Shown: piece after piece, positions 21,977 through 37,309 of the stretch
Layout of the letters: each line of letters starts with the position of its first letter
Numbering within the stretch: the first letter of the stretch is position 1
From: a virus
Strand: one strand, 5' to 3'
IMG/VR virus record: IMGVR_UViG_3300007555_000016
Coordinates: 1-37,850 of that record
Length of the DNA stretch: 37,850 nucleotides
Notes under the pieces: generated by a model
What the model was told of the DNA's origin: nothing
What the model saw: the letters and a program-made list of their open reading frames with translations, nothing else
Database searches by the model: none
Translations under genes and position numbers: made by a program

Positions 21977-24900
21977 ATGGCGAAGTTTACCGGCGCATTA
22001 TCAGGATCATTAGCTTTCATGAAGGGAGGAGTCGCTCAGACTCAATTAGTTCCTGGTGCTCAAAGTCTTAATCTTACTGGTTCATTTAATATTACTGGTT
22101 CTCAACTTACTTTCAACGGTAGGGATGTAATGGCTACGATAGATTCGCTTCAAGCAGGGGCTAATCCTAATATTGGTTCATTAAGACTACATTCTGCATC
22201 TATTAACCTTTATACTCAATCTAATGATCAAAGAGTAGAAAGATTAGAGGCAGTTACAGGTAGTATACCTAACTTAAATGCTGCTACCTCATCATATTTT
22301 CTTAAAGCTGATAGTTCTAACATCATATCCTCTTCTTTACAGATAGATGCACTTGGATATAATAGAGATGTTATCTCATCTTCAGCACAAATATATAATT
22401 TAGGGTATAGAAAGGATGTATTAAGTGGATCTAAGCAAATACTTGACTTAGGATTCGTTACTTCCTCAGATATCGCTAGATACTCAGATTTAACCAACGT
22501 TCCAGGTGGTATTATTAGCTCTTCTGCTCAAGTAGGTACATTAGGCTATATAACTGGTTCAACTTATTTAGATTTAGTAAATATTCCTAGTAATATAATG
22601 TCTGGCTCTAGTCAGATATCAACTAACTTACTAGATACTACAGTAAACTTCGGTACTGGATTAGTTTCAGCATCAGCTTTTAAAGGAGACGGTTCAGGAT
22701 TAACTGGTATTGCAGTAGATACTATAAGTTCTATAAGATCAGACTTCGATCAGACAGGATCTGTTAGTATTACTCATAGTTTTAACACTCAGAACGTAAA
22801 TGTAACAGTTTATGATGAGAATGGATTCCAGTATATACCTGCTTCTACCCAATTAGTAGATAATAACAACGTAAAGGTAACTTTCGCTGAATATTCAACA
22901 GGACACGTAGTTGTAACTGTTGGAGGACATATATTTTCTGGTTCTGTAGAGTATAGCTCTGTATTAAACACACCAACTAACCTTATATCATCATCACAAC
23001 AGATATCTGACTTAGGATTTGGAGGAGCTTCTGTAGTAAGTGCTGGAACAGTATCATCTTCTGCACAGATAATAGACTTAGGGTTCATAACCGGTAGTGT
23101 ATACTCAGATATTATTAATACCCCTAGTGGAATTATTAGTAGTTCACAACAAATTACTGATTTATCATTCTTAACATCAGCATCAGCTGCATTAGCTGGA
23201 TTTGGTGAAGGAGGAGCAAGTGTTTCACCAGGTACCGTATCATCATCATTACAAATAGCTGGATTAGGCTTCATAACCGGTTCAGTACAAGCAGATGTAG
23301 TAGGATTAAACGTCTTTTCTGGCTCTATACAGAGTCAAGTAGATGGTTTATTAGCAGCTACATCATCATATGCTGTAGGATCACATTCAGACATAAATTC
23401 TCTTAATAGCTTTACAGGATCTATACAATCTCAAGTAAATCATATTAATAGTGTTACTGGATCTTTCTTAACATCAGCAGTAGACGGCACTATATCAGGT
23501 TCTACACAGATATCTGACTTAGGGTATATTACTTCTGCATCAGCAGCATCATTAGGCTTTGGATCTGGTGGTTCTGAGACTTCAGCAGGTACTATTTCAT
23601 CGTCTTTACAAATAATTAACTTAGGATTTATAACTGGATCAGAGCAATCTGATGTTACTGGTTTAAATACCTTTACTAGTTCAATACAAAGTACAGTAGA
23701 CGGCTTATTAGCTGCTACTTCTTCATATGCAGTAGGTTCTCACTCAGATATCAGTGGGTTAAATTCAAAAACAGGTTCTTACGCTACTTCTGGTTCGAAT
23801 ACCTTTATAGGGAACCAGATAGTAAGCGGAAGTATCATTCCAGAGTCAAGTATTAACGATTTAGGTAGTGCATTAGCACCATTTAGACATTTATATGTTA
23901 CTTCTGGGTCTGTTAAGTTTATGAATCCAGATGGTACCGAACAATCAGCATTTAATAACCAATTTGACGGTAATAGAGTAGTATCTAACACAGATCACCC
24001 TTTATTTAACTCTTTTAATCCAGGTAGCTCAGGAACAATAGAAGATTTCTTAACAGCAGTCTTTTATCCTAATACAGCACCAACTATTACTACAGGAAAT
24101 CAAGTAATTGAAGAGTATACTGCAAATGCTTCATCAATAGTTACCATAACCGGTACAGATGCTGAATCTCAGAGTATTACCTTCAGTATTGATGATTCTT
24201 ATACAGATGGATTTGTAATAGTTGATAATGGAGTATTAAAATTAAATACTGTACCAACAGCAACTGCATTTAACACGGATAATAGAGGTGATGGAACTTT
24301 AGCTCACCCAGTAGTAGTAAAAGCAACAGATACAATAGGAGCTTCTTCTACTAAAACAATATATATTAGAGTTACACCAAATGCTGCTCCTATATTTAGA
24401 GAAAGTAGCATTTCTGGTAACCAAATAACATCATTTAGTACTTCAAGAAACGAAAATGCAAGCTCAGGAGAAGTTACTAAGGTATATTTTACAGATACAG
24501 AGAGTGATAGTATAACTATCAATTCAGGTTCAGATCTTAACGGACATTTTAGTATTATTAAATACCCTACTTATGTAGCTATAAATCAAGTCACTGCTTC
24601 TCTAGATTATGAAAGCATTACTTCTTATAATATGTCTATTACAGCATCAGATGCTCATTATGAAGCAGGTCAAGATGCAGATTCGGTTACTTCTTTACCC
24701 ATTACTATTAACGTAACAGATAATACTCAACCAACAGTCAATAATCAGACTCTGAGTACTATAAATGAAAATAGCTCAGCAGGAACTACAGTAGGAACAA
24801 TAACAGCTACAGATCCAGAAGGAGATACTATAACTTTTAAGAATGCTACATTATATAGTTTAGAAGTTGACGGTGGAGAAGTAAATACAGGTTCATATTC

Positions 24901-26899
24901 TGGTACTGCACAACTAACAGACCCAACAGAAGATGCTTTTACTGTATCTTCAGCAGGAGTAGTCACTAGAAAGAACGGAGTACATCTTAATTCTGATTTA
25001 ATTGATGAATACAAGTACCAAGTAGTTGTTACTGATGCGTATAATAACGGTTCTGACACAGGAATTATTACTATACCTATAAGTGATGATACAGCTCCTT
25101 CAATAAGTGGAGATACTACCTTATATGTAATTGAATCAGCAGTTAGCAGTAATAATATATACGATAACTCAAATGGATATTCAGGAACTACATCAAGATT
25201 TACTTCTAATCAAACAGTAACTTGGGCAGTTAGTTCTTCAAACGACTTTAATATAAACTCAAATGGATATTTAACTCTGGCTAGAGATATATCCGGTTCA
25301 GCTGATGTTGGAGGTGATCAATTAAGCGGAATAGTAACAGCAACTAATACTTTTGGTACTGAAGCTACTCAAGCATTCACTGTCAACATAACAGACAATA
25401 CAGCACCAACAATTACGTTTAGTAATGTAAGTGCAAATCAGAATACTAATAAAGCTGTACCAGGTAACAACCTAGTATCAGTTTCATTTAGTGATGCAGA
25501 GGGCAATGGAATAGATCATAATTCATTTGTCTTCGATGATCAAGGAAATAACGTATCAGCAACTAAATCTGGTGATACGTACTTAATAAGGGCAACCTCA
25601 GCATTAGCAGCAGGTAACTACACCGTAGGAATTACCATAGCTGATGCAGAAGGGTTTGCTTCTCGCACATCTACTCATACATTTAGTATTTCACAAGCAG
25701 TAGTTGGTACTTTAACTACCAATGGAACGTTTAGAATTATTGAATCAGCTCTAGATGGTGACGAGATTAAAATAACTTCAAATGGTAGAACGGGAACTCA
25801 AGCAGATGTCGGAGTTACGTACTCACCTTCCTACGGTAGCCAAGCTGTTTCGTCATTTACTTCAAGTAATGCAAGCATAACGGTAAATTCATCTGGTAAC
25901 CTTACCGTAGGTACAAACCTAAGCGGTTCATCTACATCAGCAGGCGATAATATAACATCTAATATTACTTTCCAAGATCAATATAACAATATTGGTTCAG
26001 GAAGTGTTACGGTATTAGTTGTAGCAAATAGTAGCCCTTCTGTAACAGTAAGTGAACAAGGAAGTTTAGAATCAGATAACATAGCAAATGGAGTACTATG
26101 CGCTTCAGTATCAATTTCAGATACAGAATCAGATTATCCAATAACATTAGCTTTATCAGGTACTAATGCTTCCGATTTTACAGTAACATCTAACAATTCC
26201 AATGGAACATCATGGGATATAGATGCAAATAGTGCCTTAGCAGCTGGTACATATACATTTACAGTAACTGCTACAGATGCCTTTGGTAAAACAGGGACAG
26301 ATACAGCTTCAATAGTAATTGCACAATCAGCAGATTATGGATTAGTATACGTTTATACTTCTACATACGGTTCAGATGCAGGTTTTGGAGCTAATTATTT
26401 AGGAGTAATGGGCGGTAGTACAGTCAATAGTGATGTACCACCAGAAGTTACTGCTTATACAGCAAATACATCATCACCATTCTATAAATTTAAGAGTGGA
26501 GATGTAGGAAGTACTTCTATTAGTTTAGCAGGCGGTCAAACAGCCACTTTACAGACTAGTGGATCAGGTTCAGACTTAGATAGTGTATTATCAGCATTAG
26601 GAACGATAAGCGCTAACACTACTGGACAAGTAATTATAGTTTACCCTTCTGGTTCCGATATGACAGTACCAACAACGATTCAAGAATCGTTTAATAGTAC
26701 AGCAGGAGGAGCAGTACCATGTATGGATGTAGATGGTAATGGATTCGGAATAGAATCAGGAGTATTACATTCTGTTACTTTAGACTCAGCACATCTGGGA
26801 TATAGTGAATGGTTTGTATTTGGGAGAAAATCACAGAACGCAATAGCTTCTGGCTTTAAAATGAGGCTAGTAGCAGCAAACGGTAGTTTACCGACATAA
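21977..26899 (+). CDS. Giant tail-fibre/adhesin (1640 aa) with cadherin/Ig-like repeats
   Basis: A virion-surface adhesin is likely. Residues 1-640 are built from ISSSAQI-DLG(F/Y)-type repeats, with a beta module (GDGSGLTG, VSITHSFNTQNVNVTVYD, GHVVVTVGGH) shared with the fibres at 29232 and 30689. A linker TIEDFLTAVFYPNTAPTI (near 683-700) leads to about seven Ig/cadherin-like domains of about 100 residues, starting near 695, 799, 917, 1038, 1140, 1240 and 1351, with acidic turns such as TATDPEGDTITF. Residues 1452-1640 form a different C-terminal domain (YGLVYVYTSTYGSDAG, YSEWFVFGRKSQNAI), perhaps receptor binding. Because fibre genes end in S74 or unique tips, I expect this tip to set specificity. 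No signal peptide, as for virion proteins. Confidence 0.82.
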   Translation: MAKFTGALSGSLAFMKGGVAQTQLVPGAQSLNLTGSFNITGSQLTFNGRDVMATIDSLQAGANPNIGSLRLHSASINLYTQSNDQRVERLEAVTGSIPNLNAATSSYFLKADSSNIISSSLQIDALGYNRDVISSSAQIYNLGYRKDVLSGSKQILDLGFVTSSDIARYSDLTNVPGGIISSSAQVGTLGYITGSTYLDLVNIPSNIMSGSSQISTNLLDTTVNFGTGLVSASAFKGDGSGLTGIAVDTISSIRSDFDQTGSVSITHSFNTQNVNVTVYDENGFQYIPASTQLVDNNNVKVTFAEYSTGHVVVTVGGHIFSGSVEYSSVLNTPTNLISSSQQISDLGFGGASVVSAGTVSSSAQIIDLGFITGSVYSDIINTPSGIISSSQQITDLSFLTSASAALAGFGEGGASVSPGTVSSSLQIAGLGFITGSVQADVVGLNVFSGSIQSQVDGLLAATSSYAVGSHSDINSLNSFTGSIQSQVNHINSVTGSFLTSAVDGTISGSTQISDLGYITSASAASLGFGSGGSETSAGTISSSLQIINLGFITGSEQSDVTGLNTFTSSIQSTVDGLLAATSSYAVGSHSDISGLNSKTGSYATSGSNTFIGNQIVSGSIIPESSINDLGSALAPFRHLYVTSGSVKFMNPDGTEQSAFNNQFDGNRVVSNTDHPLFNSFNPGSSGTIEDFLTAVFYPNTAPTITTGNQVIEEYTANASSIVTITGTDAESQSITFSIDDSYTDGFVIVDNGVLKLNTVPTATAFNTDNRGDGTLAHPVVVKATDTIGASSTKTIYIRVTPNAAPIFRESSISGNQITSFSTSRNENASSGEVTKVYFTDTESDSITINSGSDLNGHFSIIKYPTYVAINQVTASLDYESITSYNMSITASDAHYEAGQDADSVTSLPITINVTDNTQPTVNNQTLSTINENSSAGTTVGTITATDPEGDTITFKNATLYSLEVDGGEVNTGSYSGTAQLTDPTEDAFTVSSAGVVTRKNGVHLNSDLIDEYKYQVVVTDAYNNGSDTGIITIPISDDTAPSISGDTTLYVIESAVSSNNIYDNSNGYSGTTSRFTSNQTVTWAVSSSNDFNINSNGYLTLARDISGSADVGGDQLSGIVTATNTFGTEATQAFTVNITDNTAPTITFSNVSANQNTNKAVPGNNLVSVSFSDAEGNGIDHNSFVFDDQGNNVSATKSGDTYLIRATSALAAGNYTVGITIADAEGFASRTSTHTFSISQAVVGTLTTNGTFRIIESALDGDEIKITSNGRTGTQADVGVTYSPSYGSQAVSSFTSSNASITVNSSGNLTVGTNLSGSSTSAGDNITSNITFQDQYNNIGSGSVTVLVVANSSPSVTVSEQGSLESDNIANGVLCASVSISDTESDYPITLALSGTNASDFTVTSNNSNGTSWDIDANSALAAGTYTFTVTATDAFGKTGTDTASIVIAQSADYGLVYVYTSTYGSDAGFGANYLGVMGGSTVNSDVPPEVTAYTANTSSPFYKFKSGDVGSTSISLAGGQTATLQTSGSGSDLDSVLSALGTISANTTGQVIIVYPSGSDMTVPTTIQESFNSTAGGAVPCMDVDGNGFGIESGVLHSVTLDSAHLGYSEWFVFGRKSQNAIASGFKMRLVAANGSLPT
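23132..23764 (+). repeat. Tandem 357-base in-frame duplication in adhesin gene
   Basis: Unit 1 is 23132-23488; unit 2 begins at 23489 and stays similar to about 23764. The period is exactly 357 bases (119 codons). Both contain the order (I/S)SS..QI-DL, LTSASAA or ITSASAA, GT(V/I)SSSLQI, GLGFITGS or NLGFITGS, then DGLLAATSSYAVGSHSDI. The last stretch is identical at protein level, while DNA differs at many third positions. Confidence 0.85.
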
Positions 26900-26913
26900 A
26901 AGAAGATAGATAG

Positions 26914-27720
26914 ATGCCATTATTTAGTTCGAAATTAGAGTTAACATCAGCAGCCTCAGGATCAGGGGTAGCCTTAGCAGACGTACAATTTATTCGTGGT
27001 GCTTTTAGGACTGTTGCTGATACTGGCGAACTAAACAATATACCTGTATCACAAATTGCTGATAAACAAATAGTTTGGGTTGAAGCTGAATCATCAACTT
27101 ATCAAGCAACTGTTACTTTAGCAGATTATGTTAATACATTTACTGATTCTGTAGCATGGAGTTCTTTCACTGGATTTGGATCTGGTGGAGGTGGAGCATC
27201 TAACATAGGAGAGTTAACAGACGTATCAACCGGTTCATTAAGTAATGGACAAATATTACAGTATAACTCCTCAAATCAAAAATGGGAAGCAAGTAGTGTT
27301 TCCGGAACAGGAGACATCTCTGCAGTATTTGCAGGAGATGGATTAACAGGTGGAGGTTCTGCCGGTTCGGTATCTTTAGATGTAGATCCTGGGCTAGGTA
27401 TGCAACTAACGACTGACGGTATCTCTTTAGATACAGGGTCAGGTCATTTTATTAACGCAATAAATGCATTAGCAGATACAGGAATTTTCCAACAAACAGG
27501 ATCTGTATTCTCAGCTAATGAAGATTTTGAAATAACAGGCTCTTTAACTATTGATTGGAGCTCAACTGGAAAACCTTTAAGTATAACATCAGGTTCACTT
27601 GAAGTATTTTCGGTAAGTAATAACGGAGTATTGAATTTAATATCCCAATCTAATACACCAACCGCACAGGAAGGCAGTATTTATTTTGGAAACGATAAAA
27701 ACCTCTACCTTGGAGTATAA
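26914..27720 (+). CDS. Tail-fibre-associated protein (268 aa)
   Basis: A 268-residue Ser/Gly/Thr-rich protein starting MPLFSSKLELTSAASGSGVA. A compact N-terminal part (about 1-85, with IADKQIVWVEAESSTYQAT) precedes Gly-rich and beta-repeat sequence, with SNIGELTDVSTGSLSNGQIL, then VFAGDGLTGGGSAGSVSLDV and an end TAQEGSIYFGNDKNLYLGV. The latter repeats are typical of phage fibre shafts (GTGLTGGG-type). It sits between the adhesin and the next fibre gene. Its own N-terminal part could be a virion attachment or accessory tip domain, but no specific family is recognised. It ends before a 69-base gap with a promoter-like motif. Confidence 0.7.
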   Translation: MPLFSSKLELTSAASGSGVALADVQFIRGAFRTVADTGELNNIPVSQIADKQIVWVEAESSTYQATVTLADYVNTFTDSVAWSSFTGFGSGGGGASNIGELTDVSTGSLSNGQILQYNSSNQKWEASSVSGTGDISAVFAGDGLTGGGSAGSVSLDVDPGLGMQLTTDGISLDTGSGHFINAINALADTGIFQQTGSVFSANEDFEITGSLTIDWSSTGKPLSITSGSLEVFSVSNNGVLNLISQSNTPTAQEGSIYFGNDKNLYLGV

Positions 27721-27727
27721 CATAGGA

Positions 27728-27737
27728 CTATTTATTA
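27728..27737 (+). promoter_or_regulatory. Promoter-like motif CTATTTATTA
   Basis: A one-base variant of the intergenic motif, in the 69-base gap before the fibre gene at 27790. A 6-bp inverted repeat AACTCA / TGAGTT with a three-base loop lies downstream at 27745-27759; its role is unclear. Confidence 0.4.
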
Positions 27738-27789
27738 ATATAACAACTCAAAATGAGTTAAAACTAAAAACACAATTTAAATAATTATT

Positions 27790-29133
27790 ATGGCAACATG
27801 GAAAAAGGTCATTGTCTCGGGAAGTGGTGTGTCCCAACTATCGAATGACGCTAATTTTTTAGCAACAAACGGAGACGGTTCAAGTTTGACCAACTTAACA
27901 TTCGCAAACATTACAGGTAGAAACGAAGGTATTGAAGATATCGTCGGAGCTATGGTAGATGGCGGAACAGAAACAAACATCACAGTCACCTATGATGACA
28001 CAACAGGAAAATTAAACTTCGTAGCTAACGCTGGAGACGTAACTGGCGTAACAGCTGGTACAGGTCTTACAGGCGGTGGAGCTTCAGGAGACTTAACAGT
28101 TAATGTAGTCGGTGGAGACGGTATTACAGCCAACGCCGATGAATTAGAAGTCACAGTAGATGGTTCGTCTATTGAATTATCTGCAACAGACGGTACTGGA
28201 GCAGTTAGAGTTAAAGCAGGAGGTATTGCTAACTCTCATTTAGCAGATTCAGCAGTAGGTACTGATGAAATAGCAGCTGATGCAGTAAACGGAGACAAGA
28301 TCGCTGACAACTCAATTAATAGTGAGCATTTTGTAGATGGTGCTATCGATACAGCACACATTGGAGATGATCAAGTAACAGCAGCTAAATTAGCTAATAC
28401 AGCAGTAACAGCTGGATCTTACGGTAGTACTACAGCAGTACCAACTTTTACAGTTGATGATCAAGGACGTATTACAGCAGCAAGTACAGCAGCAATTGCA
28501 ACTTCATTTACAGTTGGAGCAGATGTAGGTAATGACGATGTTGTAGCAGGTGGTCAGAAATTAACTTTCGAAGGAGGATTAGGTGTTACTACTACAGTAT
28601 CTGATAATAAAGTAGCAATTGATATCGCAAACGGAATCGTTTCAGCTTCAGCATTTACTTCACCTTCTCAAGGTACAGTAAGAGCTACTATAAATGGAGT
28701 TAATGGTGGTGATATCGATACAGGATTACAATCAGCAGATAGTCCTACATTTGCAGGATTAACTATCAACGGAAATCAAGTTGTAACTGGAGACTTAACA
28801 GTACAAGGTACTACAACAACTCTAAGTACGACTAACACAGCAATTAAAGATAAATTTATACTTCTTAACTCAGGATCAGCTAATCCAGATCAAGGTGGTA
28901 TTATTATCGATGAAGGTTCAGGAACAGGTCACGGACTTATATATGACGAAGGCGACGGAAGATTTGGTATTAACCAAAGTGTATCTTCAACAGCAACTTC
29001 AGCTAACTCAGAAGCTTATGTAGCTTTAGTAGTAGATCAAGATAATGTAGCACATGACATTACTGACGCAGAATATCACAAGAGAGGTAACATGAAAGTT
29101 GACTCTTCAGATGATATCTTTATATATGTGTAA
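27790..29133 (+). CDS. Tail fibre protein (447 aa) with shared C-terminal domain
   Basis: The N terminus MATWKKVIVSGSGVSQLSND is a variant of the W-K-K-(V/L)-I-x-SGS start shared with the genes at 29232 and 30689. The shaft has phage-fibre repeats: GTETNITVTYDDTTGKLNF, GVTAGTGLTGGGASGDLTV, and a run of short units IADNSINSEHFVDGAIDTAH. The last about 116 residues (from 28783) start VTGDLTVQGTTTTLSTTNT, followed by DKFILLNSGSANPD and EGSGTGHGLIYDEGDG; a paralogous copy ends the fibre gene at 29232. There is no membrane or enzymatic signal. I infer a structural fibre subunit; whether the shared domain is a tip or a trimerisation unit is open. Confidence 0.8.
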   Translation: MATWKKVIVSGSGVSQLSNDANFLATNGDGSSLTNLTFANITGRNEGIEDIVGAMVDGGTETNITVTYDDTTGKLNFVANAGDVTGVTAGTGLTGGGASGDLTVNVVGGDGITANADELEVTVDGSSIELSATDGTGAVRVKAGGIANSHLADSAVGTDEIAADAVNGDKIADNSINSEHFVDGAIDTAHIGDDQVTAAKLANTAVTAGSYGSTTAVPTFTVDDQGRITAASTAAIATSFTVGADVGNDDVVAGGQKLTFEGGLGVTTTVSDNKVAIDIANGIVSASAFTSPSQGTVRATINGVNGGDIDTGLQSADSPTFAGLTINGNQVVTGDLTVQGTTTTLSTTNTAIKDKFILLNSGSANPDQGGIIIDEGSGTGHGLIYDEGDGRFGINQSVSSTATSANSEAYVALVVDQDNVAHDITDAEYHKRGNMKVDSSDDIFIYV

Positions 29134-29161
29134 ATAAAACAAATAATAATTATTGGCTAAT

Positions 29162-29181
29162 GGGGAGTCTCACCGCTCCCC
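29162..29181 (+). terminator. Hairpin in fibre intergenic gap, possible weak terminator
   Basis: A 6-bp stem GGGGAG / CTCCCC encloses an 8-base loop TCTCACCG in the 98-base gap 29134-29231. It is the only GC-rich sequence there. No T-run follows directly (next bases are TACATGCCC), so it may be a weak or factor-aided terminator, or an RNA processing or stability element. Confidence 0.4.
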
Positions 29182-29231
29182 TACATGCCCTTTAATTTAG
29201 TTACAGTTATTACAAAATAAAACAATATAAA

Positions 29232-30368
29232 ATGACCTGGAAAAAAGTAATTGTCAGCGGATCATCGCCCGAATTAAATTCTATAGTAGTAGATAATAAT
29301 GTAGCAGCCTCTTCATTTAGTGGAGCTGGAGCTAACATAACTGGCGTTATTCATAACTCTGGAGAAATCGCTTCTGATATTTCCGGTTCTTTTACTTCCC
29401 TATCTGGTTCTATTGCATCTAGATTTGACGGATTAACCTCAGATTATACTGAATTATCAAATGTTCCTAACGGAATAATATCTTCGTCAACTCAAGTTGA
29501 AGCTACACTAAATAATAATAGTGTTGATTTTGGATCAGGAACAGTAACAGCAACAGCTTTTGTAGGAGACGGTTCTAATATTTCTAACATTACAGTTGAT
29601 CAATCAGCTACCGTTATTAATACTTTTACAAATCAGACAACAGTAGCAGTTACTCACAACTTCGAGTCCAAAAATATTGTAGCAACGGTATACGATGGCA
29701 ATGATGCCATGATGATACCTGCTAGCGTAGTCACTACAAGTGATAACGTATTAACAGTTACCTTTAGCGACCCTACAAGTGGTAGAGTGATAGTAGGTAA
29801 AGGTGGTCATATTGTATCTGGATCTATTCCTTATGCAAACATAATTAACAGACCTACTTTCTTATCATCATCAGCACAGATTAGCTATACAGAAGTACAG
29901 AACATACCTTCCGGTATTATCTCATCTTCAGCTCAAATAGATGCAAATTTATTTAACATCGATGGATTAGTATCTTCGTCTGCTCAATTAGGCTTAGGTA
30001 CAACTAACAATGTAGAATTTGCAGACTTAACTTTAACTGGAGATCTTGTAGTACAAGGCACAACAACATCAGTACAAACAGCAAACCTATTAGTAGAAGA
30101 TAAATTTATCCTACTTAACTCTGGTTCAGCAAATCCAGACGTAGGAGGTTTAGTAATTGATGAAGGAAGCGGAGAAGGTCATGCTTACGTATTTGATGGT
30201 TCAAGATTTGGATACGTAGAATCATTAGCACAAAATGCAACAACAGCTACTCCATCAGCATTCGCTTCAGCAGTAGTAGATATAGATGCAGGACATGCAG
30301 ACATTTCAGAATATCAAAAAAATGGTAATATCAAAATAGACAGTGGAACAATTTTCATCTATTCTTAA
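29232..30368 (+). CDS. Tail fibre protein (378 aa), mosaic of modules
   Basis: It starts MTWKKVIVSGSSPELNSIVV, nearly identical over ten residues to the preceding fibre. Residues about 110-200 hold the beta module found in the 1640-residue adhesin (VGDGSNISNITVDQ, VAVTHNFESKNIVATVYD, GRVIVGKGGHIVSGSIPY), followed by ISSSAQI-type repeats. The last 112 residues (from 30033) are a paralogue of the C terminus of the 27790 fibre, with VQGTTTSVQTANLL, DKFILLNSGSANPD and EGSGEGHAYVFDG. Thus it combines the start and end of one neighbour with the middle of another. A structural fibre subunit is most likely. The gap in front has no copy of the promoter-like motif. Confidence 0.8.
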   Translation: MTWKKVIVSGSSPELNSIVVDNNVAASSFSGAGANITGVIHNSGEIASDISGSFTSLSGSIASRFDGLTSDYTELSNVPNGIISSSTQVEATLNNNSVDFGSGTVTATAFVGDGSNISNITVDQSATVINTFTNQTTVAVTHNFESKNIVATVYDGNDAMMIPASVVTTSDNVLTVTFSDPTSGRVIVGKGGHIVSGSIPYANIINRPTFLSSSAQISYTEVQNIPSGIISSSAQIDANLFNIDGLVSSSAQLGLGTTNNVEFADLTLTGDLVVQGTTTSVQTANLLVEDKFILLNSGSANPDVGGLVIDEGSGEGHAYVFDGSRFGYVESLAQNATTATPSAFASAVVDIDAGHADISEYQKNGNIKIDSGTIFIYS

Positions 30369-30384
30369 GAAGTTATTTAAAAAA

Positions 30385-30588
30385 ATGGCGTTTATAAATA
30401 AAGGTAAAATATTGACAGGAAAAGCAGCTAAAGATAAGATGCAAAAAGACGAGGCTGTTAATACTGATCTCACACAACAGGAAATACAATTCATACTCAC
30501 TAAACTTAGACAAGCTAATTTTAAAGGAGCAGAGTTTGAACTATTCTATGTAGTATTTTCTAAACTTTCCAATTTACTTAAAAAGTAG
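30385..30588 (+). CDS. Small conserved phage protein (67 aa), unknown role
   Basis: I choose the ATG at 30385 (MAFINKGKILTGKAAKDKMQ), 16 bases after the fibre stop, rather than the in-frame ATG at 30343, which would lie within the preceding fibre gene. The C-terminal half (TDLTQQEIQFILTKLRQANF then KGAEFELFYVVFSKLSNLL) resembles a small helical protein that recurs near tail-fibre genes in aquatic phages (L..EE..FIL.KL, KG.EFE.FY). Function unknown; a fibre assembly helper is possible from context only. Confidence 0.7.
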   Translation: MAFINKGKILTGKAAKDKMQKDEAVNTDLTQQEIQFILTKLRQANFKGAEFELFYVVFSKLSNLLKK

Positions 30589-30613
30589 TTGCTTATTTAA
30601 CTTTTTTTACCGA

Positions 30614-30621
30614 TATTTATA
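30614..30621 (+). promoter_or_regulatory. Promoter-like motif TATTTATA
   Basis: In the 100-base gap 30589-30688, 75 bases before the next ATG. The motif context is GATATTTATATTT, so the leading C is missing. A short GAAA-loop hairpin (CTCGAAAGAG near 30655) lies downstream; it is too weak to interpret. A T-run at 30602-30608 has no stem before it. Confidence 0.38.
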
Positions 30622-30688
30622 TTTAAAGCTATTATAGGCCTTAATAGGAAGTGGGCTCGAAAGAGTTACCAACCGTAATATAAGTAAC

Positions 30689-31018
30689 ATGCCAAATTGG
30701 AAAAAACTAATAACTAGCGGTTCTGACGCTAACCTAAATTCTCTTACTGTAATAGGTACAGTCGCTGCTAACGCTTTTAGTGGAGACGGTTCTTCTTTAA
30801 GCAATTTAAGCATACCATCAACCTTCACTAAATCTGTAGTTGGAGGTTCCCTTTCATATAATATAGATCATAATTTATCCGAGCCATATCCTATAGTACA
30901 GGTATATGATGCTAACGGATATCAGGTTATCCCAAAAGATATAATATCAATCAGTTCTTCTAGAACCAGAGTACTATTTTCTGATGAATTTAGTGGAACG
31001 GTTGTTGTAAAAAAGTAG
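30689..31018 (+). CDS. Small tail-fibre module protein (109 aa)
   Basis: Consists almost only of two shared modules. Residues 1-12, MPNWKKLITSGS, match the W-K-K leader of the fibres at 27790 and 29232. The rest is one copy of the beta module of the larger fibres: FSGDGSSLSNLSIP, LSYNIDHNLSEPYP, IVQVYDANGYQVIPKDI, RVLFSDEFSGTVVVKK. It is therefore a minimal fibre gene: an attachment-like start plus one sandwich domain. It could be a stand-alone spike subunit or a donor for fibre recombination. The frame is intact with its own upstream promoter-like motif. Confidence 0.75.
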   Translation: MPNWKKLITSGSDANLNSLTVIGTVAANAFSGDGSSLSNLSIPSTFTKSVVGGSLSYNIDHNLSEPYPIVQVYDANGYQVIPKDIISISSSRTRVLFSDEFSGTVVVKK

Positions 31019-31019
31019 A

Positions 31020-31027
31020 TATTTATA
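31020..31027 (+). promoter_or_regulatory. Promoter-like motif TATTTATA before S74 fibre gene
   Basis: In the 37-base gap before the ATG at 31056 and starting 36 bases upstream of it. The extension TATTTATAAATAAG resembles the CTATTTATAAGTAA copies. Confidence 0.42.
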
Positions 31028-31055
31028 AATAAGATAACTCAAATAAAATAAAGTA

Positions 31056-34000
31056 ATGAGAATAGATAGTCCTAAAGTATCAAATTTAACCTTCCAATCC
31101 GGATCAGGAGTCTCTGACTCGGCATTTACAGGTTCATTTTCTGGTTCATTCACAGGAGTCGGTAATTTTACCGGCTTAACAGCAGACAGTGTAGAGTATG
31201 CAAACATACTAAATAGACCAAACGGATTAGTTTCCGGTTCATCTGCACAAGCAAGAGCACAAATCGGATCAGTAATCGGTACAGACGTACAGGCTTATCA
31301 CGAAAACTTAAATGACATATCAAATTTAAATCCTACTGACAGTACATTCATTGTTGGAGCAGGATCTTCATTTGTTTTAGAGAGCGGAAATACAGTTAGA
31401 ACTTCCCTTGGACTAGGAAGCTTAGCAGTATTGAATACTGACGCTACGTTATCTAGCGTAAACCTTTCAAGTAACTCAACATATAGTTTCCCTAACCTTA
31501 CTAATCTACCTACTATATTCTCAGGGTCAGATCAAGTTACCGGTTTAGCAAACGATCAACTAACAAACTCTTCTATATCAATAGATGGTTCAGCCATCTC
31601 ATTAGGAGGTTCAGTAACGACTTTACAATTAGGATCAACCAATACTACTGCACTCGCAGGAAATACTAGAACTATTAGTTCTACAGAAATTGGTAATATC
31701 TCAGACAACAACGATAAGGTAACTAACGTTACAACAAATTTAAGTATTACAGGCACAACTGGAGCTAGAACAATAGTTTCTTCAGATGGTACTGATGCTG
31801 TTATTCCAATCGCTACAACAAGCGTATCGGGTGTAATGTCTAAAGCAATATTTGACGAACACGTTCTTAACAACGCTAAAGAAACGGATGTTAATCACAA
31901 CGTAACTACAAATTTATCTATAACTGGTACAACAGGTGCTAGAACAATTGTTTCATCTGACGGTACTAATGCTGTTATTCCAATCGCTACAACAAGTGCA
32001 TCTGGTCTTTTATCACCAGGTTTATTCGATGAAATTGATGCAAACACCGCAAAAGTATCTAACGTAACTACTAACTTATCTAAAACAGTAAGTGGAACTG
32101 GATTCTCAATTAATTCCTCAGACGGTACTAATGTAGCATTAACTTTAGCTACTACAGATAACTGGGGTATTATGTCAGACGAAATGTTTGATAAATTAGA
32201 CGGTATTGAAACAGGTGCAACAGCAGATCAAGATTTAACTTCATATCAATTAAAACCTTCAGAAGGAGCTTTTGCTAACGGTGATAAAACTAAGTTAGAC
32301 GGTATTGAAACAGGTGCAACAGCAGATCAAGATTTAAGTTCATACCAAGTTCAGCCAAGTGAAGGTGCTTTTGTTAATGGTGATAAAACTAAATTAGATA
32401 ATATAGAAGCAGGAGCAACTGCAGATCAGGATTTAAGTTCTTACCAGGTACAACCTTCAGAAGGAGCTTTTGCTAATGGAGACAAAACTAAATTAGATGG
32501 TATAGAAGCTAATGCAACAGCAGATCAATCTAATGCAGAAATCGTTGCAGCAGTAGTAGCATCAACAAGTATATCTAATAGTAATAAAGGAACTATAAGA
32601 AGTAATATAGGAGTAGATGCAGCTGGTACTGATAACTCAACAGATGTATCCTTAGGAGGTTCATTAGACTATGTAACATTATCAGGACAGGTTCTTACTA
32701 GAAATGCAATTAACTTATCAACTGATGTAACAGGTACCTTACCGGTATCTAATATGGCAGCTACAGCATTAACAACTGTACAGACAGCAGCCAATCAAAC
32801 AGCTCATTTAGCATTAACAGCACAAGAAGGTGACGTTGTTGTTAGATCTGATGAGAATAAAACATATATGCATAACGGTGGTACTGCTGGAACTATGGCA
32901 GACTATACGTTATTAGCAACTCCAACCGATGCTGTAACAAGCGTTAACGGTGGTACAGGTGTTGTTACTGTAACAGAGAACGTTACAACAAATTTAGGTA
33001 TAACTGGTACAACAGGTGCTAGAACAATTACATCTTCAGACGGTACTAACGCAGTAATACCAGTAGCTACAGATAGTGTTTCTGGTGTAATGTCAGCAAC
33101 CGATCATACTAAACTAACAGGTATTGAAGCTAATGCAACAGCAGATCAAGATCTTAGTGCATACCAATTACAACCAAGTGAAGGTGCTTTCGTTAACGGT
33201 GATAAGACTAAGTTAGATAATATAGAAGCAGGAGCAACCGGAGATCAAGATTTAAGTTCTTATCAAGTTCAACCAAGTGAAGGAGCTTTTGGTAACGGTG
33301 ATAAGACTAAGTTAGATGGAATTGAAGAGAATGCAACTGCAGATCAAACAGCAGCAGATATTAGAACCTTAGTAGGTACAGGTAACAGTAACTTTGTACC
33401 AGCAGCTGGTTCAGCAGGAACCTTCTTAGCTCATGACGGTGTATACAGAACTCCATCTTATACTACAAACACAGATACAAATACAAACCAACTTACTACT
33501 TGGAGTTTAAGAGATGATGATAATGATGATGTAACAATCGGTCAAGGCAAGTTTATTAAGTTTGTAGCAGCAACAGGTACATTAGGAACAAACACAACAG
33601 GAACTGGAACATCTGCAAGTCCTTACATAGTAACTATCACATCACCAGATACTACAACCAATACACAATTAAGTGACGCAGAAGTTAGAGCAGCAGTTGA
33701 GGCAGCAGATGATTCAAATGTATTTACAGATGCAGACCATGGTAAATTAGATGGTATTGAAGAGAATGCAACTGCAGATCAAGATTTAAGTGGATACTTA
33801 ACAACTTCCGGTAAAGCAGCAGATTCTGAAAAGCTTGATGGTGTTGACAGTACATCGTTCCTAAGAAGTGATCAAGCAGATACGTTTTCTGGTATGTTAA
33901 CAGGAACTGCTATCGTAAGGACTGGAGCAGGAGTATCGCCAAATGAATCAAATGCTTCACTAAATCCTAACGGTATAATAACAGCTCAGTCAACAAACAT

Positions 34001-34613
34001 GGCTCTGATAGAAATCGATTCATCAAATGATCGACTTCGTGTATTTACTGGTGGTACTGGAGCAGGAACTTTAAACTTCCCAACTACTGGGAATACTAGC
34101 TATGCTTGGACACTTCCTCTAGCAGAGGGTACTATAGCATTAACCAGTGACATAACCGGAACAAACTCAGGAACAAACACAGGAGATCAATCAAGAGGAA
34201 GTTTATCTATTGATACAGACGACAATGTACAGTTTAACGCTTTAGGTATAGGAACAGGAGCGTCTTCTACAGCAGGAGAGATTAGAGCAGCAGGAGATAT
34301 TACAGCATACTATTCTTCTGATGAAAGACTAAAAGAAAACTTTGCACCACTAACAGGGGCTTTAGATAAAGTAAATGCAATCGGAGGATACGAATTTGAT
34401 TGGAAAGACGGAATCGAAGACGTTGTTAGTAAGACAGGACATGATATTGGAGTAAAAGCACAAGAGCTGCAAGTACAGTATCCAGAACTAGTTCATGAAA
34501 GAGATAATGGATACTTAGCAGTTGATTATATTAAATTAAATGCAGTACTAATAGAAGCAGTAAAAGAATTATCTGCTAAAGTAGATAAGTTAGAAAATAA
34601 ATGCAACTGTTAA
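31056..34613 (+). CDS. Tail fibre (1185 aa) with C-terminal peptidase S74 chaperone domain
   Basis: A long repeat shaft ends in an intramolecular chaperone. The N terminus has GSFSGSFTG and ISNLNPTDSTFIVG-type sequence. Three GTTGAR(T)I-type blocks (near 31729, 31903 and 32983) and two arrays of 33-residue KLDGIE-type repeats (32181-32526 and 33099-33350) follow. The C terminus from Tyr1086 reads YSSDERLKENFAPL, with further S74 elements GVKAQELQVQYPELV and YIKLNAVLIEAVKELSAKV, and ends ENKCNC. S74 domains help fold and trimerise the fibre and then cleave themselves off, usually at the serine of the SDER motif; Ser1088-Asp1089 fit. The mature fibre would end near residue 1087. Confidence 0.88.
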   Translation: MRIDSPKVSNLTFQSGSGVSDSAFTGSFSGSFTGVGNFTGLTADSVEYANILNRPNGLVSGSSAQARAQIGSVIGTDVQAYHENLNDISNLNPTDSTFIVGAGSSFVLESGNTVRTSLGLGSLAVLNTDATLSSVNLSSNSTYSFPNLTNLPTIFSGSDQVTGLANDQLTNSSISIDGSAISLGGSVTTLQLGSTNTTALAGNTRTISSTEIGNISDNNDKVTNVTTNLSITGTTGARTIVSSDGTDAVIPIATTSVSGVMSKAIFDEHVLNNAKETDVNHNVTTNLSITGTTGARTIVSSDGTNAVIPIATTSASGLLSPGLFDEIDANTAKVSNVTTNLSKTVSGTGFSINSSDGTNVALTLATTDNWGIMSDEMFDKLDGIETGATADQDLTSYQLKPSEGAFANGDKTKLDGIETGATADQDLSSYQVQPSEGAFVNGDKTKLDNIEAGATADQDLSSYQVQPSEGAFANGDKTKLDGIEANATADQSNAEIVAAVVASTSISNSNKGTIRSNIGVDAAGTDNSTDVSLGGSLDYVTLSGQVLTRNAINLSTDVTGTLPVSNMAATALTTVQTAANQTAHLALTAQEGDVVVRSDENKTYMHNGGTAGTMADYTLLATPTDAVTSVNGGTGVVTVTENVTTNLGITGTTGARTITSSDGTNAVIPVATDSVSGVMSATDHTKLTGIEANATADQDLSAYQLQPSEGAFVNGDKTKLDNIEAGATGDQDLSSYQVQPSEGAFGNGDKTKLDGIEENATADQTAADIRTLVGTGNSNFVPAAGSAGTFLAHDGVYRTPSYTTNTDTNTNQLTTWSLRDDDNDDVTIGQGKFIKFVAATGTLGTNTTGTGTSASPYIVTITSPDTTTNTQLSDAEVRAAVEAADDSNVFTDADHGKLDGIEENATADQDLSGYLTTSGKAADSEKLDGVDSTSFLRSDQADTFSGMLTGTAIVRTGAGVSPNESNASLNPNGIITAQSTNMALIEIDSSNDRLRVFTGGTGAGTLNFPTTGNTSYAWTLPLAEGTIALTSDITGTNSGTNTGDQSRGSLSIDTDDNVQFNALGIGTGASSTAGEIRAAGDITAYYSSDERLKENFAPLTGALDKVNAIGGYEFDWKDGIEDVVSKTGHDIGVKAQELQVQYPELVHERDNGYLAVDYIKLNAVLIEAVKELSAKVDKLENKCNC
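32181..33350 (+). repeat. 33-residue (99-base) fibre shaft repeats
   Basis: Unit type GDKTKLDGIETGATADQDLS, then SYQVQPSEGAFVN. Full units start at 32280, 32379 and 32478, exactly 99 bases apart, with a partial unit before. A second array starts near 33099. Units differ at synonymous and some coding sites. Similar KLDGIE-type repeats are known in many phage fibres. Confidence 0.85.
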
Positions 34614-35681: not shown

Positions 35682-36542
35682 TTGAAAATAATATGGGTTT
35701 ATGAAAACATAAATAAACAGAGAGAAGATTACAGTAAGTTTAACACCTTACTAATGCTGGCCTCAGTAAGTTTATGGAAACGAAATCATCCTGAAGATGA
35801 TACATGGTTATATTGTGATGAATTAACTCATTCACTCATAACAGAACTTGGAGTTCAATCTCTATACGATAATATAGAAATCATTGACTTCAACGACAGA
35901 CCTATTGATAAGACTAATTTCTGGGCTAGTTCTAAACTTCAAGTATTAGCTTTACAGACTGAACCAGTTATTATAATGGACTGCGACACGTTAGTATTCA
36001 AGCCTTTCAAACACAACATAGTAAAAGATCAAGTTTTATTTTCTAATAGAGAATTCGGTAGAGGTTATTACCCTACTTCACTTGATCCTTTAATTAGAGG
36101 ACTATCTTATAAGCCAAGATGGAAAACTGAGTCTGTTAACGTCTCTTTCTTATATCTTCCAGATCCAGTATTTACTCAAGAATACGCAAACTTAAGTCTT
36201 AAGTTAATGGAAGAATTTACTGTTTTAAAAGCACCTAATTCTAGGTACTTAATATTTGCAGAACAGCTACTCTTAAAACACTTACTAGTAAAAAATAAAG
36301 TAGAACATAGAGCTGTAATCTCTACAGAATGGGACTGCAATAATTGGAAATGGAGCAATGTTAACTCAGACGGTATATGGACTATTGAAGATTCATGGCA
36401 ATGGTTTAGACATTATGGTCCATTAAAAAAATGGTATAAAACTAATTCTCCTGACCATCCCTACGATGTAGAAATAGAAATGTTGCGTAATTGCATTAAT
36501 TTTCATAAATTTATAGATCTAAGCAGTTTAACAAAGAAATGA
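35682..36542 (+). CDS. GT-A-type glycosyltransferase, TTG start
   Basis: A 286-residue protein likely to transfer a sugar from a nucleotide sugar. It starts at TTG 35682, because the first strand of the fold, MKIIWVYENIN, is encoded there; the first in-frame ATG would lose it. The catalytic core is LQTEPVIIMDCDTLVFKPF with the metal-binding D-x-D at Asp100-Asp102, preceded by WASSKLQVLAL. Downstream is a Trp-rich C-terminal half (WDCNNWKWSNV, SWQWFRHYGPLKKWY) that could bind acceptor. The layout resembles GT8/GT32-like enzymes; exact family and sugar are unknown. Its stop overlaps the methyltransferase ATG (ATGA, 36539-36542), so they are coupled. Confidence 0.78.
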   Translation: MKIIWVYENINKQREDYSKFNTLLMLASVSLWKRNHPEDDTWLYCDELTHSLITELGVQSLYDNIEIIDFNDRPIDKTNFWASSKLQVLALQTEPVIIMDCDTLVFKPFKHNIVKDQVLFSNREFGRGYYPTSLDPLIRGLSYKPRWKTESVNVSFLYLPDPVFTQEYANLSLKLMEEFTVLKAPNSRYLIFAEQLLLKHLLVKNKVEHRAVISTEWDCNNWKWSNVNSDGIWTIEDSWQWFRHYGPLKKWYKTNSPDHPYDVEIEMLRNCINFHKFIDLSSLTKK

Positions 36543-37309
36543 GTATAGTAGATAAAAATTTTGTATTTGATAAAATTACCAACAATCAAGTTTATAAACA
36601 AGATCAGAACGGTAAAATTATTATAGAACATGATGCTGTAAAGTATAGATGGACCCACGGTGCTACAGACTATCACTTAGGAGATGGGTTACTTATTTAT
36701 GCTATGATTCAAAATATGAGAGCTAAGAACTGCGTATGTTTAGGTTCTGGTGCTGGATTTATTCCCCGTATAATGACTCAAGCAAGAATAGATTTACATG
36801 AGCAAGGCATTTTCGAAGGTAAACCAGACTTTAGTTGGGGAGATATTGGAGCTACATTTATTGTAGATGCTGCCAACGGCATTGGAGGAGAAGTAGATTG
36901 GTTAAAAGAAGACTCTTTCTTAAGAAAAATATTTCACCCTAGAATAGTTAACGATACAACAGAAAAAGCTTATTATGATTTTTTTGTCAAAGAGGATATT
37001 AAGATAGATTACCTTCATATCGACGCAGGACATTCATATGAGAATGTTAAACAAGACTTTACCTTATACAGTAAACTTTTAAACCCTAATGGTATTATAT
37101 CAATTCACGATACAGATATAAGATACGCTAATAAACACATCGTTACTAAGGATGTATCTGATCTAAACAATCATGAAGAGTTTGCAAACGGACCTTCTAA
37201 GTTTATAAGTGAAATATCTGATGAATGGCAAAGATTCGACTTTCATAACCATGGGATATTAAATACAAAACCAAGTTCAACCGGATTAACAATTTTTAGA
37301 CGTGCTTAA
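36539..37309 (+). CDS. Class I SAM-dependent methyltransferase
   Basis: A 256-residue protein with a Rossmann-type SAM motif CVCLGSGAGFIPRIM (about residues 66-80) and, later, IDYLHIDAGHSYENVKQDF (from about 157), followed by LLNPNGIISIHDTD. The H-I-D-x-x-H-x-Y pattern with an HDTD strand is characteristic of Methyltransf_24-type enzymes, many of which act on sugars or small molecules. The gene lies between two glycosyltransferases and is translationally coupled to the first, so a sugar O-methyltransferase is a reasonable inference. No DNA methyltransferase motif (DPPY or PCQ) is present. Confidence 0.8.
   Translation: MSIVDKNFVFDKITNNQVYKQDQNGKIIIEHDAVKYRWTHGATDYHLGDGLLIYAMIQNMRAKNCVCLGSGAGFIPRIMTQARIDLHEQGIFEGKPDFSWGDIGATFIVDAANGIGGEVDWLKEDSFLRKIFHPRIVNDTTEKAYYDFFVKEDIKIDYLHIDAGHSYENVKQDFTLYSKLLNPNGIISIHDTDIRYANKHIVTKDVSDLNNHEEFANGPSKFISEISDEWQRFDFHNHGILNTKPSSTGLTIFRRA

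Follow-up and report, generated by a model that had tools for sequence, protein, structure and literature searches.

Our analysis revealed that three fibre genes of a T4-like phage carry homologous copies of one domain of about 65 residues. In the libraries searched, no named family appears to describe this domain. The window, i.e., the whole stretch of DNA analyzed, comprises 37,850 bases of the virus record IMGVR_UViG_3300007555_000016. We consider it moderately probable that the module functions in virion fibres as a structural bead and as their end-cap, and that its copies, anciently duplicated, have since been inherited mostly in place.

The fibre genes and module copies described below lie on the plus strand. 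Gene A (P0001, 21977-26899) encodes an adhesin of 1640 residues, in which the core of module copy A occupies residues 251-318 (22727-22930) and is preceded by a GDGS linker (22628-22726). Copy B is located at residues 124-193 (29601-29810) of the 378-residue fibre encoded by gene B (P0002, 29232-30368), and copy C, of the terminal form, at residues 46-108 (30824-31012) of the 109-residue product of gene C (P0003, 30689-31018). A shared block had been noticed in these three genes in a preceding sequence-only reading, and shuffling, blastp and profile searches confirmed it in all three places. The local alignment scores were 213 for A-B (z 24.9), 123 for A-C (z 15.6) and 141 for B-C (z 18.7) against 3000 shuffles, none of which reached the observed values; for the core alone, with the GDGS linker removed, the z values were 18.8, 11.4 and 13.1, respectively. 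Among the window's fibre proteins, blastp aligned A with B at 38% over 220 residues (E 3e-34), B with C at 35% over 93 residues (E 3e-12) and A with C at 37% over 91 residues (E 4e-9), and copies A and B align without gaps over 101 residues. The high content of S, T, G, and N in the genes, together with the frequent occurrence of short repeated motifs in fibres, would be in favour of convergence of low-complexity, beta-rich fibre sequence without common descent. Such convergence is hardly conceivable, however, considering that the composition-matched shuffles never attain the observed scores, that a profile built from the three window copies alone matched 60 proteins of the fetched loci with E below 1e-3, and that three residues are invariant in 49 members: H61 in the (T)HN(F/L) motif, P82 in the xIP motif, and G103 before the end of the last strand (F97 is nearly invariant).

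The module is predicted to be an autonomous four-stranded beta domain, the fold resting on AlphaFold2 models for which an alignment of 49 module sequences was used as the input. The model of C contains a confident four-stranded beta unit at residues 46-108 (pLDDT about 98), with strands at 46-60, 69-74, 84-89 and 92-108, and does not fix the N-terminus. In the model of the whole gene B product the module is the sole part with any confidence, a moderate one, the confidence elsewhere being low; its predicted strands (residues 127-141, 149-155, 165-169 and 173-190) follow the same order. The long-short-short-long pattern of strands is thus confidently predicted for C and moderately so for B, and the comparison of structural models, proposed as a check in the sequence-only reading, gives the same predicted strand order for these two proteins. 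The predicted phage proteins retrieved with the B model and with the C model partly coincide and include S74, collagen-repeat and pectate-lyase proteins as well as a PBS1 tail fibre; in the best cases, some 65 residues superpose to within about 1-2 Angstrom. The Foldseek search against the PDB gave no significant solved structure (best E 0.22, none below 0.001), and the PDB sequence search with C, B and the module profile retrieved only unrelated chains. Hits to RGL-family PDB entries were judged to be due to chance.

The module occurs in two forms. The internal form ends with ...VVVAKGGHIV, the chain continuing after GGHI(V/F)SGS, while the terminal form carries EDYPIVQVYD and ends with ...GTVVVKK immediately before the stop codon. 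Scans of viral contigs and a few cultured phage regions (241 sequences; the collection search was made with two narrow profiles) yielded 261 module copies in 155 non-redundant proteins of the fetched phage loci, from one to six per protein. Seventy-five of these proteins end with a module, 73 contain only internal modules, and the remaining 7 run off the contig. The domain is unnamed in Pfam and NCBIfam. Bacterial Ig-like Pfam families gave no above-cut-off match for the window's modules and only scattered weak hits among the members, and the BACON Pfam family was absent both from the hits of the window proteins and from those families (25 of 36) that were listed for the members. PHROG 16122 was matched by all 49 members and PHROG 21918 by 48 of the 49 (E below 1e-3), each profile being only partly covered; the former is named only "virion structural protein" and the latter has no function assigned, and both are protein clusters rather than domain descriptions. 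Distant copies, four to five per genome, were found in structural proteins of the jumbo phages PaBG of Pseudomonas and the Erwinia Alexandravirus group; they differ from the window's copies in sequence (about 30-40% identity), in gene contexts and in belonging to jumbo genomes. No relative of the internal form was confirmed by tblastn in 84,980 bacterial and archaeal species.

The late genes of the window are arranged in a T4-like order (large terminase, portal, prohead protease, major capsid protein, PhoH, and neck genes), and the fibre cluster (21977-34613) is located downstream of the neck genes. The phage is T4-like, and its closest cultured relatives infect Flavobacterium. The closest of them is Flavobacterium phage immuto (Immutovirus), which has the same capsid-PhoH-neck order. 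Since its terminase is 74% identical to that of the window, and the gene names outside the fibre cluster are based largely on similarity to this annotated phage, the host of the window's phage is probably a member of the Bacteroidota, likely of the flavobacteria. Immuto shares the C-terminal block of gene B and P0004; unlike the window's phage, it has no module in its genome at E 0.001. Nor was the module found in Mel-JY01 at the same threshold. The adhesin A has no relative by tblastn among 50,697 cultured phage records, and the region 29232-31018 has no DNA match among cultured phages. After the fibre cluster, a DUF6734 protein and a Methyltransf_24 methyltransferase are encoded (35682-37309), both of which are kept in relatives.

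The module is one of several blocks that the fibre genes share in a mosaic fashion. In gene A, N-terminal shaft repeats are followed by the module, further shaft repeats and then Ig/cadherin-like domains, including a cadherin domain (PF00028, E 4e-8) at residues 825-911 (24449-24709). Downstream of A there are a structural gene for 268 residues (P0005, 26914-27720) and a module-free fibre of 447 residues (P0004, 27790-29133). Gene B consists of a WKK N-terminus, a shaft motif, the module, another shaft motif and a C-terminal block (29901-30362) shared with P0004 (28621-29127), and gene C of the WKK N-terminus, a GDGS linker and a single protein-ending module. The last gene of the cluster is the tail fibre P0006 (31056-34613, 1185 residues) with a C-terminal S74 endosialidase-type chaperone and without the module. 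Three of these relationships had not been recorded in the sequence-only reading: the N-terminal block WKK(V/L)I(V/T)SGS common to B, C, and P0004, the C-terminal block of 169 residues common to B and P0004, and the extension of the A-B homology beyond the module (residues 195-410 of P0001, 22559-23206, against 70-256 of P0002, 29439-29999). In both A and B, shaft motifs of the type YxxLxNxPxxIISSSxQI flank the module on both sides with the same spacing of 129 residues; in A the module with its flanking motifs, YLDLVNIPSNIMSGSSQI and YSSVLNTPTNLISSSQQI, extends from 22565 to 23005. A small open frame (30343-30588; 81 codons from GTG, shorter from an inner ATG) overlaps the end of B and precedes C.

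As to the history of the copies, in the tree of 64 modules (alignment of 68 columns) a branch (95/75; present in 92% of bootstrap trees) separates the terminal copies from the others. The window's A module groups with the A modules of the relatives L004 and L010 (100/99), its B module with B of L004, then with L026/L029, L005 and L031, and its C module with protein-ending modules of other phages. The order of A, P0005, P0004, B, C, and the S74 fibre is largely conserved among relatives, and the three window copies therefore behave largely as orthologues inherited by gene position, the outcome that had been named in the sequence-only reading as contrary to its proposal. That proposal, the spread of the domain by recombination with later diversification, holds in so far as there was old copying and loss, to which the one to six copies per protein and the absence of the module from an orthologue of A testify; it is not supported for a recent spread among A, B, and C, given the tree groups and the DNA of modules A and B, which is only 28-70% alike in 40-base steps. 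Gene C contains one module in the window, L004, L008, L026, L036 and L115, two in L010, L024, L030, L031 and L032, and three in L005 and the L013-L021 group, and in the syntenic relative L024 the orthologue of A lacks the module and, with it, one shaft motif of the pair. From this variation it follows that individual genes acquire and lose modules, and tandem duplication accounts for some neighbouring copies: adjacent copies cluster in L182 (98/89) and in L015/L017 (98/94). For B-position modules as a single clade, the AU test was applied to three versions of the set, which were picked after viewing the tree, and gave p values of 3e-5, 0.056 and 0.002, respectively; such a clade is thus rejected for two versions and borderline for the third. 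Since the agreement of the internal copies with gene position is no longer clean at greater distances, older exchange or replacement among them is possible.

Comparison with L004, the nearest distinct relative of the window, points to another place of recent recombination. At position 22937 (support 22913-22964), two to three codons past module A, third-position identity to L004 rises from 0.72 to 0.90, and this change point is stronger than in 300 of 300 permutations. The dS values against L004 are 0.57 before module A and 0.61 within it, and then 0.18 and 0.15. The tract recently shared with the L004 lineage extends from 22937 to 27450, its downstream end being gradual and approximate; it includes most of P0005 and begins at the 3' edge of module A, which itself lies outside. 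Distal A and the neighbouring genes were probably subject to recent homologous exchange between the two phage lineages. A second step, less sharply placed, is found near the end of module B at 29772 (support 29670-29805), with a further change at 30045. The C-terminal part of B (30045-30330) has 47-58% amino-acid identity to L004, yet this block is conserved in more distant phages. Further patches of high third-position identity occur in P0004; one small mosaic patch (28414-28681), flanked by less similar stretches, reaches 95-98% against L004.

These data do not favour the idea, put forward in the sequence-only reading, that the module region is a swap unit for host range: the dS of the modules themselves against L004 is near the backbone level (0.41-0.61), and the exchanged tract starts beside the module and covers the distal A. 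The S74-chaperone gene, in which length and sequence differ from L004 more than in any other fibre, is a likelier candidate for a role in host range. This fibre contains internal repeats (DKTKLDGIEANATADQ-like units), and the repeat stretches align to L004 in several registers.

It could be proposed that the module is a mobile cassette whose edges are preferred crossover points, with fibres being reshuffled at the module boundaries. The synonymous steps after module A and near the end of module B agree with this, as does a survey of 295 protein pairs among relatives (36 distinct change points kept, 16 families), in which module interiors contained 5 change points against 11.7 expected under uniform placement (p 0.007); this depletion is exploratory, being one outcome of several tests at several thresholds, and sequence conservation of the module may account for a part of it. 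The edges themselves, however, showed no significant excess (9 change points within 8 residues against 5.3-6.3 expected, p 0.07-0.17), and the present-day DNA similarity of the shaft motifs that bracket modules A and B is no more than 56% and 41%, with the longest exact runs of 6 and 4 bases. Such a cassette is therefore rather unlikely. The flanking shaft repeats were also considered as a present-day recombination substrate and rejected, their DNA similarity being too low for efficient homologous recombination. Unlikely, too, in our estimation, is a related proposal, in which an undescribed and widespread fibre domain with a chain-ending variant acts as a conserved connector and its edges as exchange junctions for distal adhesin segments.

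We return to the bead and end-cap. The internal module would sit between short shaft repeats, the chain going on past its final motif, while in the terminal module the last strand would end the protein and thereby close the fibre. Copies A, B, and C would have arisen from ancient duplication, each window copy being thereafter mostly inherited within its own gene; the number of modules per gene would shift through tandem duplication, gain and loss, and exchange between lineages would act next to the modules, in this case on the distal adhesin A from the 3' edge of its module onwards. Trimeric fibre assembly, capping, the role of a bead or spacer and the location in the virion are what we infer from the above. 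A purely passive bead would not require the dN/dS of all three modules against L004, about 0.25, which is somewhat above the values of most neighbouring segments (0.02-0.17). This ratio, the tandem copies, the position at the protein end and the example of BACON domains, tandem arrays of which have been associated with phage tail proteins (PMC6949934), could rather suggest a putative receptor-binding (carbohydrate-binding) domain, multiple copies of which widen or tune host range, as was also supposed in the sequence-only reading. Such a function seems doubtful: the ratio is well under 1, the window proteins have no above-cut-off carbohydrate-binding match and the members only scattered sub-threshold hits, and the module is kept across orthologues, whereas the neighbouring S74-type fibre varies far more in length and sequence. 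What speaks against a fibre bead is that PHROG places the module partly in families labelled "head and packaging" or "head decoration". The complete matching of the members to PHROG 16122 (head and packaging), the matching of 19 of them to PHROG 2647 (head decoration) and the location of the genes after the neck genes would fit head or neck decoration proteins instead of tail fibres. We regard this as quite unlikely, because the module fold is also present in predicted phage tail-fibre proteins and the cluster ends with the S74 tail fibre.

The profile, the predicted fold and the two forms make the domain ready for naming in many unannotated fibre proteins of aquatic phages and of some jumbo phages. 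In addition, the part of a fibre that is shared can differ from the part that is exchanged, and a repeated domain should therefore not be equated with a host-range swap unit unless synonymous divergence has been tested. Domain sharing among phage fibres is already known (PMC10684548; PMC6949934). Smug et al. (2023; PMC10684548) described homologous domains shared by unrelated phage structural proteins, with recent mosaicism pronounced in tail fibres and spikes; in the window, by comparison, the common domain is ancient and has for the most part been passed on at a fixed position, and the recent exchange affects the adjoining segment. In crAss-like phages, whose predicted hosts are Bacteroidetes, the small BACON domain is repeated in tandem in tail-associated proteins, and its arrays grow via duplication and horizontal transfer (PMC6949934). 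The module has no match to the Pfam BACON family and differs from BACON in possessing a distinct protein-ending form.
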